In this document: piece by piece, positions 3,543-9,037 of the stretch
Layout of the letters: each line of letters opens with the position of its first letter
Position numbering within the stretch: position 1 is the stretch's first letter
DNA from: Sphingomonas morindae
GTDB taxonomy: Bacteria; Pseudomonadota; Alphaproteobacteria; Sphingomonadales; Sphingomonadaceae
Assembly (NCBI RefSeq): GCF_023822065.1
Contig: NZ_CP084930.1
Span: 2,000,001-2,064,000 of the forward strand
DNA length: 64,000 nt
Direction of reading: 5' to 3'
Notes under the pieces: generated by a model
Database searches by the model: none
What the model was told of the DNA's origin: nothing
Seen by the model: only the letters and a program-made list of their open reading frames with translations
Program-made: the position numbers and the translations under genes

Positions 3543-3806
3543 TCAGATGTCGTCGACGTCGATCCTAACCGGCTCGGTGAATCCTTCGCCCTGTTGGTCG
3601 ATCTTCCGATGAGCTGCTCGCTCAACATCTTGCCGGACTTCAGCGAACACCTGCTCCGGCGTCATCGCGCCCGGGATCGGCCCGTAGAGCTCTGCCAGTG
3701 CATCGAGCGTGACCTCGCAGCGCACCGGCTTTTCGCGAAACTTCCACGGCGGGATGTCCTTCGCGTCGTGGCCCAACGTCTCCAACGAAAAGGTCAGGAT
3801 TCCCAT
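3543..3806 (-). CDS. DUF1488-like small protein
   Basis: An 87-residue protein on the strand opposite to its neighbours, with the strong third-position G/C bias of real genes here. The order VRCEVTLDALAEL, then AEVRQDVERAAHRKI, then EPVRIDVDDI resembles the DUF1488 family, which has a short strand, a conserved helix with paired alanines and a terminal strand. Function is unknown in that family. The start is placed at ATG 3806; two further ATGs upstream at 3824/3827 are possible. Its start codon overlaps, on the other strand, the ATG of the ASCH-like gene at 3805, an unusually tight divergent pair. Confidence 0.5.
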   Translation of the reverse strand: MGILTFSLETLGHDAKDIPPWKFREKPVRCEVTLDALAELYGPIPGAMTPEQVFAEVRQDVERAAHRKIDQQGEGFTEPVRIDVDDI

Positions 3807-4458
3807 GTCTGATCGCCCCATCATCTTCAGCGCGCCGATGGTGCGCGCCCTGATCGAAGGCCGCAAGACGCAGACGCGGCGGCTCCTGTCCCTCCGAGGG
3901 CGTCGAGGCTTCAGCGAGTTCGGACCATCGGACACTCCTGGCTATGACTGGCACTTCCGCGATGCTGGCATGCGCTGGCACGACGTGCAGGCCGATCGGC
4001 TGCTCGAGCTTCTGCCTTATGCGGCCGGCGATCGGCTCTATGTGCGGGAGGCGTGGTCGCATACCGGACATGGCGTCTGGTCGATCGAGCAGGCCCGTAT
4101 GGCCGCGCACGTCAATGGCCGTCCGATCTATCGCGCCACGGACGAGACGGACGCTGGCACGAAGTTCTGGCCATCGATCCACATGCCGCGCGAGTTCTCG
4201 CGCCTGACGCTGATGGTCGAGGCTTTGAAGGTCGAGCGGTTGCAGGACATCAGCGAGGAGGATGCGCTCAAGGAAGGTGTGGAGCCGATGAAATACCCGG
4301 AAATTGGCGAGTGGGGGTGGCCGCAGAGGAAGTTTGCCGACCTATGGCGCTCCTTGCACGGCCCGGATAGCTGGGAAGCGAACCCTTGGGTGGTCGCGCC
4401 CACCTTCAGCGTGATCCGCGCCAATATCGACAGCTTGCCCAATCGGGTGGCGGCATGA
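3805..4458 (+). CDS. Phage ASCH-like hypothetical protein
   Basis: A 217-residue protein of a type common in proteobacterial phages: IIFSAPMVRALIEGRKTQTRR at the N terminus, then GDRLYVREAW, then SIHMPREFSRLTL, then ERLQDISEEDALKEG, and a WEANPWV ending. This order matches ASCH/PUA-like phage proteins thought to bind RNA or nucleotides; no enzyme activity is established. ATG 3805 has AGGA six bases upstream. Its stop overlaps the ATG of the next gene. It is divergent from the DUF1488-like gene, whose start codon it overlaps. Confidence 0.7.
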   Translation: MSDRPIIFSAPMVRALIEGRKTQTRRLLSLRGRRGFSEFGPSDTPGYDWHFRDAGMRWHDVQADRLLELLPYAAGDRLYVREAWSHTGHGVWSIEQARMAAHVNGRPIYRATDETDAGTKFWPSIHMPREFSRLTLMVEALKVERLQDISEEDALKEGVEPMKYPEIGEWGWPQRKFADLWRSLHGPDSWEANPWVVAPTFSVIRANIDSLPNRVAA

Positions 4459-4718
4459 CCTGCGGTCATGTCCAGCTGCCCGGCGGAGCCCGGGCGATCG
4501 TCTGCTCATCGAACCGACGGCAGCGCTGCCGCTGCGGCCGGCCGGCGACGTTGCTCTGCGATTGGAAGGTGCCCGAGCGGCGGAGCGGGACGTGCGACGC
4601 GCCGCTGTGCCGGCGCTGCTCCGTCCAGCCGGCCAGGGACAAGGATCTGTGCCCACAGCACGCCGCCGCCTGGGCGGCGCGCCAGGGCCGGCTTAATCTC
4701 GATGGAGGTGCGGCCTGA
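4455..4718 (+). CDS. Small cysteine-rich, probably zinc-binding phage protein
   Basis: An 87-residue protein with CxC and CxxC-like cysteines spread over the middle: RCRCGR, TLLCDW, GTCDAPLCRRC and LCPQH. The spacing suggests two zinc sites of the ribbon or knuckle type. Start and stop overlap its neighbours by a few bases (ATGA before, TGATG after), so it belongs to the same translated run. No specific family is recognised. DNA or RNA binding is a guess from the fold type. Confidence 0.6.
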   Translation: MTCGHVQLPGGARAIVCSSNRRQRCRCGRPATLLCDWKVPERRSGTCDAPLCRRCSVQPARDKDLCPQHAAAWAARQGRLNLDGGAA

Positions 4719-5158
4719 TGGCCTATGGAAAAGATACTGAGGTGCCGTTCGAGCGCTCGGTCGCCGAGATCGTCGCGCTCCTGCGTGGCGCTGGCGCCGA
4801 TCAGATCGGCCAGATGGAGGATCGCGCCAGCTTCACGATCCAATTCGCTTTGGGCGGCCGCATCGTCAAATTTGTGGTGCGGTTGCTGGCCCCCGACGAC
4901 GTCGAGAAGATCCGCGGGCGACGACAGGATCCCGCTCGCGTCGAAGAGCAGTGGCGCCGCCAGCGCGGCCGCGCGCTGCTGCTGGTGATCAAGGCGAAGC
5001 TCGAGAGCGTCGAAAGCGACGTGGAGACCTTCGAGCAGGCGTTCCTCGCCAACATCGTGATGGCCGATGGCACGACGCTCTATGATCGCGTGCGCCAGCC
5101 GCTCGCGCTCGAATATCGAGACCGGAAGCCGGTGCTGCTGCTGGGAGGCCCGGCATGA
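4718..5158 (+). CDS. Phage hypothetical protein
   Basis: A 146-residue protein with a mixed strand/helix make-up: an N-terminal helix, the strand FTIQFALGGRIVKFVVRLL, then a basic linker (RGRRQDPAR) followed by a long helix and a C-terminal LALEYRDRKPVLLL strand. It resembles small phage proteins of unknown function next to replication genes. Start ATG 4718 overlaps the preceding stop; its own stop overlaps the next start. No function is assigned. Confidence 0.6.
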   Translation: MAYGKDTEVPFERSVAEIVALLRGAGADQIGQMEDRASFTIQFALGGRIVKFVVRLLAPDDVEKIRGRRQDPARVEEQWRRQRGRALLLVIKAKLESVESDVETFEQAFLANIVMADGTTLYDRVRQPLALEYRDRKPVLLLGGPA

Positions 5159-5382
5159 CGTGGTCTCGTCAGGCGCTATGGGCGAAAGAGCGCGCGGTTC
5201 TGCTCAAGTGTGAGGGGCTGCTCGCCTATCGCGCCGGTGTGCCCGCCAGCGGCAACCCGCACCCGCTCGGCTCAGCCAATGCTGCAAGTTGGGCGCGCGG
5301 GTGGATCGCTGGACCGGGGCCGCGGGAGCCTGTCCGCATTGAAGCGAAAACGGAGAAAGGATCGCATGGCAAGCCTGGCTGA
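5155..5382 (+). CDS. Rmf/CrpP-like small protein
   Basis: A 75-residue protein with the spacing of ribosome modulation factor-like proteins: CEGLLAYRAG, then a SGNPHP turn, then SWARGWIAG, i.e. a first helix with Glu-Gly, an Asn/Cys-Pro turn and the W..GW second helix. Rmf dimerises ribosomes in stationary phase; CrpP-like relatives occur on plasmids and phages with unsettled roles. The match is to the fold pattern only. ATG 5155 overlaps the previous stop. The start of the next gene lies inside its last codons. Confidence 0.55.
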   Translation: MTWSRQALWAKERAVLLKCEGLLAYRAGVPASGNPHPLGSANAASWARGWIAGPGPREPVRIEAKTEKGSHGKPG

Positions 5383-5698
5383 TCTGGCGCGGCACTGGTC
5401 GCGTCAAACGGAGAAGGGGAAGGGCATCAGGATCGAGGCCGACGCGCTCGACGTCCTGAACGCCAACGGAGTCGGCGAGCTGATCCAGCGCCTCGCCGCT
5501 GAGGAACAGAGGAACGCATGCAAGCAGCGGATCACGGGCTCTACACCCGGGGAAAATACCGGCTCGAGTGGGATCGCCGCCGAGACGGAAGCCTTCGGAG
5601 CCCCTTCCTCCAGATTGTCTGGTATGATCCCGCAGCGCGACGTCTCCGCAGCCGCTCGACGGGCACAGAGGACGTCCAACAGGCGGAAAATGAGCTAG
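5366..5698 (+). CDS. Small phage protein overlapping the integrase start
   Basis: A frame of 110 codons beginning MASLADLARHW. The first ~50 residues have good codon bias and look helical and charged. The remaining ~60 residues (Ser, Thr, Arg and Ala rich) lie in a different frame inside the integrase gene, an overlap of 181 bases. Small genes of this kind often precede and overlap the integrase in sphingomonad prophages, so the overlap may be genuine; alternatively only the N-terminal part is functional. An excisionase or regulator of the integrase is possible from position, but no helix-turn-helix is clear. Confidence 0.5.
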   Translation: MASLADLARHWSRQTEKGKGIRIEADALDVLNANGVGELIQRLAAEEQRNACKQRITGSTPGENTGSSGIAAETEAFGAPSSRLSGMIPQRDVSAAARRAQRTSNRRKMS

Positions 5699-6759
5699 AC
5701 GCCTTCTACCTGAAACGGGAGCGCGGGCAGGCCGTGTGCGGCACCTGCGGCCAGCCGCTGCGCGCCGGCGCGCGGCACCTCGTGACGGACGCGATCGCCG
5801 ATTATCTCGTGGCGAGGGAAGGGCGCTCGAGCATCGGCTCGATCAAGCCTCGCCTCGCGCACGTCACCGCTTACCTAACCGACACGGATCGGCTTGCGAC
5901 CGCGTGCGAGGACCTTGACGAAGACTGGATAGACGCCTTTCGCGAGTGGGCGATGGAGGTGCCGATCGTCTCTCCCACGGGCATTGAGCGAGAGCGGACA
6001 CCCGGCACGGTCGAGGCGAGCGTTCGGCAGCTCGCCGCCGCCATCAACTTCGCGCATGGGCGCAAGGACACGCTGTTCCCTGCCGCCTTCGCCGCGAAGC
6101 CGCCGGCGGAGGTGAGCCGCACGCCCAGCTACCGGGCGGACATCCCGACGCTCGCGCGCATGTTCCGCTATTGCGTGGATCCGGAGATGGCCGAAGGCGA
6201 GGGGCCGAAGGTGCTCGAGCGCCGCAAGCGCGAGCGCGCGCAGCTGCACCGGTTCCTCCAAATCAGCGTGGCAACCTGGGCCAGGCCGGACGCCGCCCAC
6301 GACGTCAACACTGACCGCGAAGCGGACCAGTGGAACACGAACGCGCGAGCGCTGAACCTCAACCCGCGCGGCCGCGCGCAGACCAAGAAGTACAGGCCTA
6401 TCGTCCCGATCCCTCGGCAGCTGGCACCGCTGCTTGACGCGAACAAGGGGTTTTACGTTTCGGTCGACTCGGTGCGGAAGGCGTTCGAGGCGATGCAGGA
6501 TGCTGTCGGCCTTCCGAGGAGCGGGGAGGGTGGGCTTAAGCTAATCCGCCGCAGCATGGCCCATCTGGCGCGCCAGCGCCTTGGTGAACGGGATTGGATT
6601 GAAGGCCAAGTCATGCTCGGACATCGGCGGCCGTCAACCTCAGACACCTACGCGCCCTTTGACGTGGGCTACCTAGCAGCGGCGCTGCGAACAATTGAGG
6701 GGATCATCGACCAGATTGTTGAGTGCGTGCCGATGGCATATCAGATGCCCTTCGTATGA
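5518..6759 (+). CDS. Phage-type tyrosine recombinase (integrase)
   Basis: A 413-residue protein. The C-terminal half carries the catalytic pattern: TWARPDAA (box I Arg), QTKKYRPIVPIP (beta-strand Lys), LIRRSMAHLA (box II Arg, but without the usual His three residues before it), LGHRRPSTSDTYAPF (box III His and the nucleophile Tyr). An N-terminal CGTCG pair around residue 75 may form a small metal site next to the arm-binding region. It should integrate and excise the element at the tRNA-Arg gene about 2.2 kb downstream. ATG 5518 has GAGGAAC upstream. The weakened box II makes activity likely but not certain. Confidence 0.8.
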   Translation: MQAADHGLYTRGKYRLEWDRRRDGSLRSPFLQIVWYDPAARRLRSRSTGTEDVQQAENELDAFYLKRERGQAVCGTCGQPLRAGARHLVTDAIADYLVAREGRSSIGSIKPRLAHVTAYLTDTDRLATACEDLDEDWIDAFREWAMEVPIVSPTGIERERTPGTVEASVRQLAAAINFAHGRKDTLFPAAFAAKPPAEVSRTPSYRADIPTLARMFRYCVDPEMAEGEGPKVLERRKRERAQLHRFLQISVATWARPDAAHDVNTDREADQWNTNARALNLNPRGRAQTKKYRPIVPIPRQLAPLLDANKGFYVSVDSVRKAFEAMQDAVGLPRSGEGGLKLIRRSMAHLARQRLGERDWIEGQVMLGHRRPSTSDTYAPFDVGYLAAALRTIEGIIDQIVECVPMAYQMPFV

Positions 6760-6798: not shown

Positions 6799-6827
6799 TT
6801 GACAGGTATCCCCTTTTGAACGATACC
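6799..6827 (+). promoter_or_regulatory. Promoter with overlapping operator-like inverted repeat
   Basis: A perfect TTGACA at 6799-6804 is followed after 17 bases by GATACC at 6822-6827 in the -10 position. GGTATC at 6805-6810 and GATACC at 6822-6827 form a perfect 6-bp inverted repeat with an 11-base centre, lying directly on the promoter. This suggests a repressed promoter for the ATPase gene that starts at 6855. No cognate regulator is identified in the window. Confidence 0.5.
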
Positions 6828-6854
6828 TAGGGACGTGAAGCTAGGGGTCCGACT

Positions 6855-8099
6855 ATGAGCGCTGAGGAAGAGGCAATCACGCAGGCGCGTTTAGCGGTTG
6901 GTCAGGTTTTTACCCCCGGATCGCCCGTTAACGAGCGAGATCTATTTTCTGGTCGGATCGAGCAGTTCAACTTCGTGTTGGATGCAGTGACGCAGCGTGG
7001 ATACCACGCGGTGATGTATGGCGAACGCGGGGTTGGGAAAACATCCCTTGCCAACGTGATAACAAGTGCGCTTGATCGCAGCGGCAAGTGGATAATCTCT
7101 CGCGTGACTTGCGACGTGTCAGACGATTACGCCTCTCTATGGCGTAAAGCTTTGCAAGATGTGGTCCTAACTAGGAGTAGGCCGGGTGTTGGCTTTAACG
7201 CTGAAGATACGACCGAGAATGGAAGATTAGTCGATCAGCTCCCTTTGGAGCTGTCTCCTGACAACATTCGACGTACGCTCATAGAGATGTCTTCCGCCAG
7301 CCCTATTCTCATCGTTTTCGACGAATTTGATAGAATAAGTTCAGATCGGACAACGACACTTATGGCAGACACCATAAAGTCTCTGTCCGACGTTGGTGTG
7401 GCGGCGACCGTTCTTCTTATTGGGGTTGCTGATTCCGTTGCGGAGTTGATCGAAGGGCATGCCTCAATAGAAAGAGTGCTTGTTCAAATTCCGATGCCTC
7501 GGATGTCAAAAGATGAGATTCTCGACATCATTTTAAAAGGCATAAGTCGATTGGGCATGAAGATTGATCAATCTGCCTGCGATGAGGTAGCCTCATTGTC
7601 CCAGGGGTTGCCATATATTGCGCATCTTCTCAGCCTGAATAGCGTGCGAGCAGCATTGCACCTTGATTCCCTGTTAGTTAAATCTGATCATGTAGCAAGT
7701 GGTATGCAGAGAGCGCTGGATCAATGGCAGCAATCAATCAAGGTATCCTACTACGAGGCTAGCAAGAGCCAGCAACCCGGCCATATATTTAAGGAAGTCC
7801 TTCTTGCCTGCGCCCTCGCTGAAGTTGATGAGCTTGGCTTTTTTACGGCGGCAGCTGTGCGGGCTCCTCTCAGGGCTATAACTAAGAAGAACTACGACAT
7901 ACCAAACTTTGCTCGGCACCTGAAAGAGCTGAGCGAGGCTGGCCGAGGGGAGCTATTGCAGCGGGTGGGCGAAACGAGAAGGATTCGCTACCGTTTTACT
8001 AGCCCGATCATGCGTCCGTATGTCGTTATCAGGGCTGTCGCTGAAAACTTGATTGGCAAAGCTGCTCTGAAGCAGATTCAGAAAACGACAACCGCGTAA
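6855..8099 (+). CDS. AAA+/STAND-like ATPase, element cargo
   Basis: A 414-residue protein. Walker A is GERGVGKT (residues 56-63), Walker B ILIVFDEFD (151-159), a sensor-1-like strand VLLIGVADS follows near 187, and the lid region is around 215-290. The C-terminal 100 residues (arginine-rich, RIRYRFTSPIMRPYV) look like a winged helix. This is the layout of the ORC/Cdc6- or AAA_16-type ATPases used in STAND-like sensors and many phage-defence proteins. The gene is clearly lower in G+C than its surroundings (23 of 60 bases in 7321-7380), has its own promoter and operator-like repeat, and lies between integrase and attachment site, the usual cargo slot. Function unproven; defence is an inference. 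Confidence 0.75.
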   Translation: MSAEEEAITQARLAVGQVFTPGSPVNERDLFSGRIEQFNFVLDAVTQRGYHAVMYGERGVGKTSLANVITSALDRSGKWIISRVTCDVSDDYASLWRKALQDVVLTRSRPGVGFNAEDTTENGRLVDQLPLELSPDNIRRTLIEMSSASPILIVFDEFDRISSDRTTTLMADTIKSLSDVGVAATVLLIGVADSVAELIEGHASIERVLVQIPMPRMSKDEILDIILKGISRLGMKIDQSACDEVASLSQGLPYIAHLLSLNSVRAALHLDSLLVKSDHVASGMQRALDQWQQSIKVSYYEASKSQQPGHIFKEVLLACALAEVDELGFFTAAAVRAPLRAITKKNYDIPNFARHLKELSEAGRGELLQRVGETRRIRYRFTSPIMRPYVVIRAVAENLIGKAALKQIQKTTTA

Positions 8100-8103
8100 A
8101 CAG

Positions 8104-8134
8104 AAAAACCCCGGCAGATCGCTGCCGGGGTTTT
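8104..8134. terminator. Strong rho-independent terminator
   Basis: CCCCGGCAG (8109-8117), loop ATCG, CTGCCGGGG (8122-8130), flanked by an A-run on the left and TTTT on the right, so it can act in both directions. It separates the ATPase gene from the NYN gene. Confidence 0.85.
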
Positions 8135-8180
8135 CCGTCAACCCTGAGAGCAGGGCGACATCGGTGAAAGGGCATCTAGG

Positions 8181-8897
8181 GTGAGCGAGCAAGTTTGTCA
8201 AGTGCCACCGCGCCCTCGTGCCGCGGTCTATGTCGACGGCTTCAACCTCTATCATCCGATTCACGACCTCGGGCCGGCTGAAAATCACCTCAAATGGTCA
8301 AGCCTCTGGACGTTGGGCAAAATGCTTGCCGAGCAAGTTAAGGCGGACCTAGTCAAAGTCGTGTTTTGCACTGCGGTTCCAAAGCATCTACCAGACAGTC
8401 GTGATCGTCATAATACCTTTAACAGGGCCCAGCGTTCTCAGGGCGTTGTCATATTAAAGGGTCACCATGTTCCTGATGATGGTGGCTATTCCGAGAAGCA
8501 GTCCGACATCAACGTCGCTCTGTCATTGATATTGGATGGTCTGGACAACGTCTATGATATAGCGATTGTCCTTTCTGCTGACTCGGATCAGGTGGCAACG
8601 GGCCACGCCTTCAGGAGGCGCCTCGCTCCCAGCGGAAAGCAGATGTTCTGCGCGGTGCCCTTGGGGCGATCGATGCCGATCGGCTTTTCGGAGCTTGGTG
8701 TGAAAAAGCTTGTCGTTACCAAGGCCATGCTTGAGACGTGCGTTATGCCGGAGCAAGTCGTTGGCGCAGACGGTTCCATCCGGCGACCGGCAGCCTACGA
8801 TCCTCCGGTTGGTTGGGTTCATCCGAATGATAGGCCGAAGCAGAAGCCGCCGAAGCCACCCAAGGCCTGGGGTAAGGCAGTGCGCACTTCAACCTGA
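8181..8897 (+). CDS. NYN-domain (PIN-like) putative ribonuclease, element cargo
   Basis: A 238-residue protein with the NYN/PIN-like acidic signature: AVYVDGFNLYH (Asp19), EKQSDINVAL (Asp109) and VLSADSDQV (Asp134/136). These are the metal-binding positions of NYN nucleases, relatives of LabA, MARF1 and VapC-type PIN RNases. The last ~50 residues are a basic, proline- and lysine-rich tail without clear fold. The GTG start at 8181 follows a short leader after a strong terminator, so it probably has its own promoter or relies on read-through. It is the last gene before the tRNA-Arg attachment site and, with the ATPase, forms the cargo of the element. The nuclease call is by motif; target unknown. 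Confidence 0.75.
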   Translation: MSEQVCQVPPRPRAAVYVDGFNLYHPIHDLGPAENHLKWSSLWTLGKMLAEQVKADLVKVVFCTAVPKHLPDSRDRHNTFNRAQRSQGVVILKGHHVPDDGGYSEKQSDINVALSLILDGLDNVYDIAIVLSADSDQVATGHAFRRRLAPSGKQMFCAVPLGRSMPIGFSELGVKKLVVTKAMLETCVMPEQVVGADGSIRRPAAYDPPVGWVHPNDRPKQKPPKPPKAWGKAVRTST

Positions 8898-8960
8898 TGT
8901 TCGCACCGGAGCAACACCGGACCACTTCCGGATACCTGACGCGACCACCCGCCGAAAAGT

Positions 8961-9037
<77 letters not shown>

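Follow-up and report, generated by a model that had tools for sequence, protein, structure and literature searches.

An ATPase gene and a NYN gene between an integrase and a tRNA gene of Sphingomonas morindae: probably two separate candidates for action against mobile elements

We analyzed a 64,000-nucleotide stretch of the Sphingomonas morindae genome (contig NZ_CP084930.1, positions 2,000,001 to 2,064,000; hereafter, the window), in which a gene for an AAA+/STAND-like ATPase and a gene for a NYN-domain protein lie between an integrase gene and a tRNA gene. An original prediction, made from the sequence alone, proposed that these genes form one undescribed two-gene module for defense or exclusion. 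On balance, we favor a different reading, namely that they are two candidate anti-mobile-element genes, each mobile on its own and each with its own transcript, that occupy the same integrase-to-tRNA cargo slot. The single module is not borne out by the co-occurrence of the two families, and a terminator-like hairpin separates the two genes. The main features, in coordinates of the window, are as follows.

5518-6759, + strand: tyrosine integrase of the element, 413 amino acids (open reading frame, ORF; C-terminal motif read by eye)
6855-8099, + strand: AAA+/STAND-like ATPase, 414 amino acids (ORF, Pfam, PHROG, structure model)
7020-7043, + strand: Walker A motif GERGVGKT, ATPase residues 56-63 (G56, G59, G61, K62 and T63 invariant across an alignment of 68 sequences that includes the window's)
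7305-7331, + strand: Walker B motif ILIVFDEFD, ATPase residues 151-159 (D156 and E157 invariant across that alignment)
8105-8134, + strand: intrinsic-terminator-like hairpin with a 13-bp perfect stem and a 4-base loop (inverted-repeat scan and fold)
8181-8897, + strand: NYN/PIN-like nuclease of the HEC-09 family, 238 amino acids, GTG start (ORF, Pfam NYN, PADLOC, structure model)
8961-9037, - strand: tRNA-Arg(ccg), the attachment gene (ARAGORN)

Co-occurrence of the two families

Homologues of the two genes rarely occur together, which is the outcome that the original prediction had itself named as telling against a module. Within the flanks examined, which vary from 0 to 8 kb among the fetched loci and in which genes were called as greedy ORFs, a NYN gene lies near a close ATPase in 2 of 108 non-redundant loci (L163 and L076), and an ATPase lies near a NYN gene in 2 of 54 NYN loci, which are L163 and L076 again. 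The 108 ATPase loci are a subset of 115 that exceeded the score limit, several copies having been removed beforehand, and the 54 NYN loci are non-identical but include many near-copies. Because the ATPase genome scan used the best 80 of 209 confirmed relatives, the ATPase counts lean to close relatives. Recurrence in at least 3 of the 108 loci is limited to three neighbor families: an IS1-like transposase in 10, a small protein in 4 and an unstudied family in 3.

Of 397 genomes from the same bacterial family, a set that includes the window's own, 9 have a NYN match; the ATPase query matches 72 at all, and 3 of those hold close relatives (E <1e-60). A second ATPase subfamily, mostly longer and ~24-33% identical, is common in this bacterial family (L006-L018, L244-L256 and others). 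In one of the two shared loci, L076 (positions 3691-6471 of a Dehalococcoidia contig), NYN and ATPase genes are divergent, the inverted repeat around them is a different one, ATAGGGAAGTGCAAAATAT, and no transposase was seen between its copies.

Relatives of the ATPase are widespread: phages, plasmids and chromosomes from many phyla carry them, for the most part with no partner gene that recurs, and the rows of the ATPase tree are labeled with more than ten phyla. In phages Cashline (gp34) and Kevin1 (gp30), an ATPase gene without a NYN gene has structural or lysis genes on one side and the integrase on the other, and plasmids pSR31 and pCM2L carry further ATPase genes without NYN. In L138 an integrase, recognized by eye, precedes the ATPase as in the window, and in L140/L062 the ATPase is, also by eye, among tail genes. 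Conversely, in three of six larger loci (L240, L241 and L243) a NYN relative has a tRNA gene no more than 0.6 kb away, one of these being tRNA-Arg(ccg) as in the window, and none of the six holds an ATPase. Taken together, these loci imply that each gene reaches such slots alone. HEC-09-like NYN genes also occur on very small enterobacterial plasmids of 3.5-5.0 kb (H22-H37, H39).

The locus and its integrated DNA

What the original prediction had said of the locus itself holds. Two ORFs carry the motifs described, and they are the only genes between integrase and tRNA, as every other ORF listed between 6759, where the integrase gene ends, and the tRNA is shorter and overlaps the ATPase, the NYN gene or the tRNA. 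Both are lower in G+C than their neighbors: the ATPase gene has a G+C content of 0.506 (0.52 at third codon positions) and the NYN gene 0.558 (0.61), whereas the integrase has 0.66 and two host genes have 0.70 and 0.75. For each cargo gene, no stretch of equal size elsewhere in the window is as low, in 100-base steps. That the tRNA gene serves as an attachment site is corroborated by an exact repeat 147 kb upstream in the genome.

8961-9006, strand not assigned: probable att core, a 46-bp segment of the tRNA 3' end (exact copy at C1:1861948-1861993)

The distant copy adjoins a P4-type integrase, read by eye, and a further tRNA-Arg(ccg) lies between both copies, at C1:1959873. The ATPase-NYN pair therefore occupies the tRNA-proximal end of a composite stretch of integrated DNA ~147 kb long, and not the end of one simple prophage; the tRNA-Arg repeats are probably a hotspot of nested or tandem integration. 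We judged the product of 5518-6759 by eye to be a tyrosine recombinase from its C-terminal motif (HLARQR...GHRRPSTSDTY); its Pfam matches are sub-threshold only. Upstream of the integrase, a small ORF at 5155-5382 matches ribosome modulation factor weakly and below the threshold (21.2 vs 27.9 bits).

Signals between and around the two genes

The hairpin at 8105-8134 has an A tract on one side and a T run on the other, so by its form it could act as a terminator both ways. The fold of 8096-8145 has an energy of -24.8 kcal/mol (z -5.8), and 0 of 200 shuffles are as stable. One further signal lies upstream of the ATPase gene.

6799-6827, + strand: promoter-like TTGACA-N17-GATACC before the ATPase (script, by position and 17-base spacer; weak)

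This site overlaps an inverted repeat, AGGTATC/GATACCT. AGGTATC occurs 6 times in the window vs 1.67 expected, and three of these copies are around the cargo (6804, 6822 and 8931), where they are possibly binding sites of the integrase or of a regulator. In addition, a 9-bp inverted repeat, CAGGTATCC at 6803-6811 and GGATACCTG at 8930-8938, brackets the ATPase-NYN pair. We do not rely on this repeat, because the same 2.3 kb contains 21 other inverted pairs of 9-16 bases.

The two proteins

The ATPase exceeds the Pfam gathering cut-offs for AAA_16, AAA_22, nSTAND1, AAA and KAP_NTPase. Its best PHROG is 6841 (4.5e-41), whose function is unassigned, while a clamp loader PHROG is reached at 3.2e-4 only. 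The structure model has a mean pLDDT of 95.3, and its matches to Orc/Cdc6 chains extend to residue 383 and beyond, in agreement with the winged-helix-like C-terminal part that had been proposed. The best solved relatives of the predicted fold are 2qen, 2fna and Orc1/Cdc6; a search of solved structures by sequence gives short or weak P-loop matches only. We take the protein to be a usually stand-alone, widely mobile AAA+ protein in the fold range from STAND/MNS to Orc1/Cdc6.

Two candidate assignments of the ATPase found no support. One is IetAS: the IetA profile scores 22.7 bits with a best stretch of 23 residues, the NCBIfam IteA model scores 16.8 vs a cut-off of 510, and the ATPase adjoins an integrase and a NYN gene, with no adjacent subtilisin-like IetS. 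The other is a described phage replication or packaging family, which the original prediction had listed as a possible refutation; the protein reaches no curated cut-off for such a family, and its best PHROG is the one without known function.

The NYN ORF is above the Pfam NYN gathering cut-off (28 vs 24.2 bits). The aspartates that had been singled out (D19, D109, D134 and D136) are invariant in all 34 aligned sequences, the window's included, and each of the 34 also matches the PADLOC profile of HEC-09, a candidate defense family. HEC stands for HMA-embedded candidate. For the window's protein this match is nearly whole-length, with residues 13-205 on positions 3-201 of 203 (5.4e-22). Its model has a mean pLDDT of 94.0, with 2qip and the MARF1 NYN domain as solved relatives; the single sequence finds no match among solved structures, while the NYN profile finds 2qip. 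No demonstrated function of HEC-09 was found in the partly accessible literature that we searched, and the main text of the PADLOC paper (PMC8565338) makes no mention of HEC, embedded candidates or NYN.

The profile searches proposed with the original prediction thus separate the two genes: the NYN protein belongs to a family already named, so that "undescribed" fits, as far as searched, the ATPase alone.

IS1-related transposons as vehicles

The more surprising result is an IS1-related family of carrier transposons. In searches of a largely open-access library, no title returned describes the ATPase or defense carriers of IS1 type. An IS1-like DDE transposase is a shared divergent neighbor in 10 of the 108 ATPase loci by neighbor clustering; by profile, it stands beside the ATPase in 12 of 108, and an IS1595 transposase in 3 of 108. 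For control we used 38 loci of the distant ATPase subfamily, partly with short flanks and including at least two close-family fragments (L167, L185). An IS1-like transposase occurs in 0 of 38 within 1.5 kb (one-sided p 0.02) and in 1 of 38 within 6 kb, the latter being the close-family fragment L185.

In 8 of the 12 loci, GGTAGTGNNTCAGTTTGAA-type inverted repeats and an 8-bp target duplication surround the transposase and the ATPase. Repeat and duplication are exact in L068, L071, L106, L144 and L163, and have at most one mismatch in L103, L104 and L127. L065 has a perfect 28-bp inverted repeat without duplication, L094 two repeat-like sites, L120 one site and L129 none by pattern. In such units a NYN gene lies between the transposase and one end, whereas an ATPase is divergent on the transposase's other side. 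One unit, L163 (also fetched as L214 and L287), contains both, in the order repeat, NYN gene, transposase in two pieces, divergent ATPase and repeat, both genes being inside one perfect inverted-repeat pair with the 8-bp duplication CAGTAGGC. Among NYN loci, 3 of 54 adjoin IS1-like and 2 of 54 IS1595 transposases. In L034, L036/L039 (where a stop splits the gene), L163 and L191, the NYN gene ends at the repeat that also bounds the ATPase units; the transposase adjoins the NYN gene in L034 and L191, and the NYN gene follows an IS1595 transposase in L238 and L242.

A scan of viral contigs for the repeat alone gave 74 loci. In 29 of them an inverted partner stands no more than 9 kb away, and 24 of the 29 carry an 8- or 9-bp duplication, one mismatch being allowed. 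In reading this count, it is important to consider that the script favored repeat pairs carrying a duplication, and that the loci are not all independent, as several come from one contig and a single duplication is common to L269, L307 and L314. An ATPase is lacking from most of the 25 repeat loci that have a transposase match. By Pfam, passengers of the transposons include PemK, HTH-M78, AAA_21/AAA_15, P63C and a DNA methylase whose Mrr_cat match is sub-threshold; judging by these domains, the cargo of PemK, HTH-M78, AAA_21 and methylase appears defense-like or toxin-antitoxin-like.

Units with GGTAGTGNNTCAGTTTGAA ends, mostly with 8-bp duplications and, by Pfam or by eye, with varied passengers, are L065, L068, L071, L103, L104, L106, L127, L144 and L163; further ones are L191, L259, L279, L297, L299, L306, L308 and L327, and no transposase match was found in the L306 unit. 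A small conserved protein of ~80-90 amino acids, with the sequence MPKGPKGQKRPADVIG, recurs in L104 (2491-2757), L127 (7193-7459), L106 (7160-7396) and L308 (4716-4955); its L104 copy has no Pfam or NCBIfam match. In L098 (832-2352), the ATPase gene is alone inside a 51-bp imperfect inverted repeat around which no duplication was found, and this is possibly a minimal mobile unit. The inverted-repeat scan around all ATPase loci also returned many GC-rich matches, which we took for chance.

We rejected the idea that the window's own copy is cargo of such a transposon. The pair is without flanking GGTAGTG-type repeats or duplication: matches around it are at chance level only, and the whole genome contains none even with two mismatches allowed. 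The IS1-like transposase of these units was not found in this genome either, and the query evidently works, because it has matches in 13 of 149 genomes of the bacterial family. In the ATPase tree, the window falls in a set of 10 rows (support 100); of its nine relatives there, four are viral contigs and none is beside an IS1-like transposase. The IS1 label, on 11 of the 12 rows, requires 10 changes on the tree and is scattered, with the tree made by a quick method and 29 of its 106 forks open.

Proposed roles and alternative explanations

Under the reading that we favor, the two genes would have entered the integrase-to-tRNA slot in separate events, or in a single one from a vehicle that they shared, and would be transcribed as two units. 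The ATPase would oligomerize on ATP as a nucleotide switch, and its winged helix may touch nucleic acid, a phage factor or a partner and so stop a competing phage or plasmid. For the NYN protein we propose a metal-dependent PIN-like RNase that would cut RNA when triggered. Because the catalytic motifs are complete, both proteins are predicted to be active. We favor protection of the host against competing mobile DNA because of the genes' independent mobility, foreign composition and slot, the HEC-09 membership and the other cargo alongside which they occur in transposons. The defense role originally proposed is therefore plausible for foreign cargo in a slot that often holds defense genes, but as two genes and not as one module.

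Several observations weigh against this reading. The two meetings of the families compare with 0.009 expected under uniform placement. A consensus scan listed neither the promoter-like site at 6799-6827 nor the hairpin, and the case for that site as the ATPase promoter is weak. PADLOC models give no confident match to the ATPase, the best being 1.5e-5 over 23 residues. Finally, in one Pseudomonas survey, HEC-09 correlated with phage susceptibility and not resistance; as the survey itself notes, correlations of this kind may reflect a failure of some systems to protect (PMC12447246).

The excess of meetings would suit a true two-component system, in which the ATPase would let the NYN nuclease act once it senses infection, with divergent and tandem layouts as variants of one arrangement. 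All three loci with both genes (the window, L163 and L076) hold them within about 1.1 kb, in L163 inside one repeat pair. However, within the flanks examined, 106 of the 108 ATPase loci have no NYN gene and 52 of the 54 NYN loci no ATPase, and the hairpin lies between the window's genes. Moreover, the NYN rate beside the ATPase (2/108) resembles that near the transposon repeat generally (2/73, leaving out L163's own contig and counting loci that are not all independent), so occasional sharing of a vehicle suffices to explain the pairing. We regard a two-component system as improbable. We give a similarly low chance to the ATPase being a transposition or recombination helper (TnsC/IstB/MuB-like) that spreads with its transposons and is unrelated to defense: transposases do accompany it, but not in the fixed association of the TnsC/MuB type, given the 12 IS1-like and 3 IS1595 cases among 108 loci and the window's genome with neither IS1-like transposase nor repeat. 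Least probable of all is a phage replication initiator or loader of Orc1/Cdc6 or clamp-loader type. Foldseek's top rows are mostly Orc1/Cdc6 and RFC chains, and NCBIfam gives weak matches to RuvB, DnaX and Orc1/Cdc6, but none reaches a curated cut-off, and the gene lies near the integrase in Cashline and Kevin1, among tail genes in L140/L062, and also on plasmids and chromosomes. For the NYN protein, a role as an RNase regulator or toxin that maintains the element by addiction, in place of a defense nuclease, is unlikely, though less so than the preceding alternatives; inspection of the window by eye showed no antitoxin-like ORF next to it, although no dedicated search was made.

We also entertain, tentatively, a broader proposal: that uncatalogued IS1-related transposons are defense carriers whose ATPase and HEC-09 passengers are handed into prophage slots, with the ATPase alone being a new effector and its pairing with NYN synergistic. 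This proposal takes passenger slots to exist on either side of the transposase and the moron slots of prophages to be recipients. If the transposon family is general, GGTAGTGNNTCAGTTTGAA repeats offer a handle for mining further defense genes between them. With the two-gene reading that we prefer, one guessed system is replaced by two single-gene candidates, a named candidate family (NYN) and an ATPase family found undescribed, for which prophage slots, transposons of IS1/IS1595 type and tRNA sites are common vehicles. If the ATPase alone blocks phages, it adds a compact single-gene system.

Comparison with known systems

The nearest predicted fold for the ATPase is that of the archaeal SSO1545/PABY2304-type ATPases (2fna, 2qen), at a root-mean-square deviation of about 7 A and 13-16% identity. 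Compared with these, the window's protein has an invariant R207 at what we read as the arginine-finger position and is without sensor repeats. Orc1/Cdc6 initiators are alike in fold but differ in context and sequence family. With STAND NTPases it shares an nSTAND1 match of 35.3 bits vs a cut-off of 27.1, a winged helix in the predicted fold, and invariant G251 and P253, which we take to be the GxP motif of STAND proteins; unlike them, it has no C-terminal sensor repeats or effector domain and ends after the winged-helix region at residue 414. Among defense models, mad8 of MADS matches 63 of the 68 aligned ATPases at <=0.01 (best 4.9e-10) and PDC-S59 of PADLOC 40 of 68 (best 1.2e-9), whereas the window's own ATPase matches mad8 weakly, at 3.7e-4 over 36 residues.

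The NYN protein is 7-14% identical to VPA0982 (2qip) and MARF1-type NYN nucleases and is longer at the C-terminus. Within HEC-09, a Cys-rich insert is present in the four other rows of one alignment (A2) but absent from the window's protein and from its closest relatives, L190 and L238; among other relatives, L240 and L241 also lack the insert's cysteines.

As for the vehicles, carrier transposases match the IS1 model at 74 and 71 bits, below the NCBI cut-off of 100, and a carrier transposase matches the IS1595 model at 149 bits. The carriers have inverted repeats and 8-bp duplications in common with IS1 and IS1595, and they hold passenger genes, as is known for IS1595.
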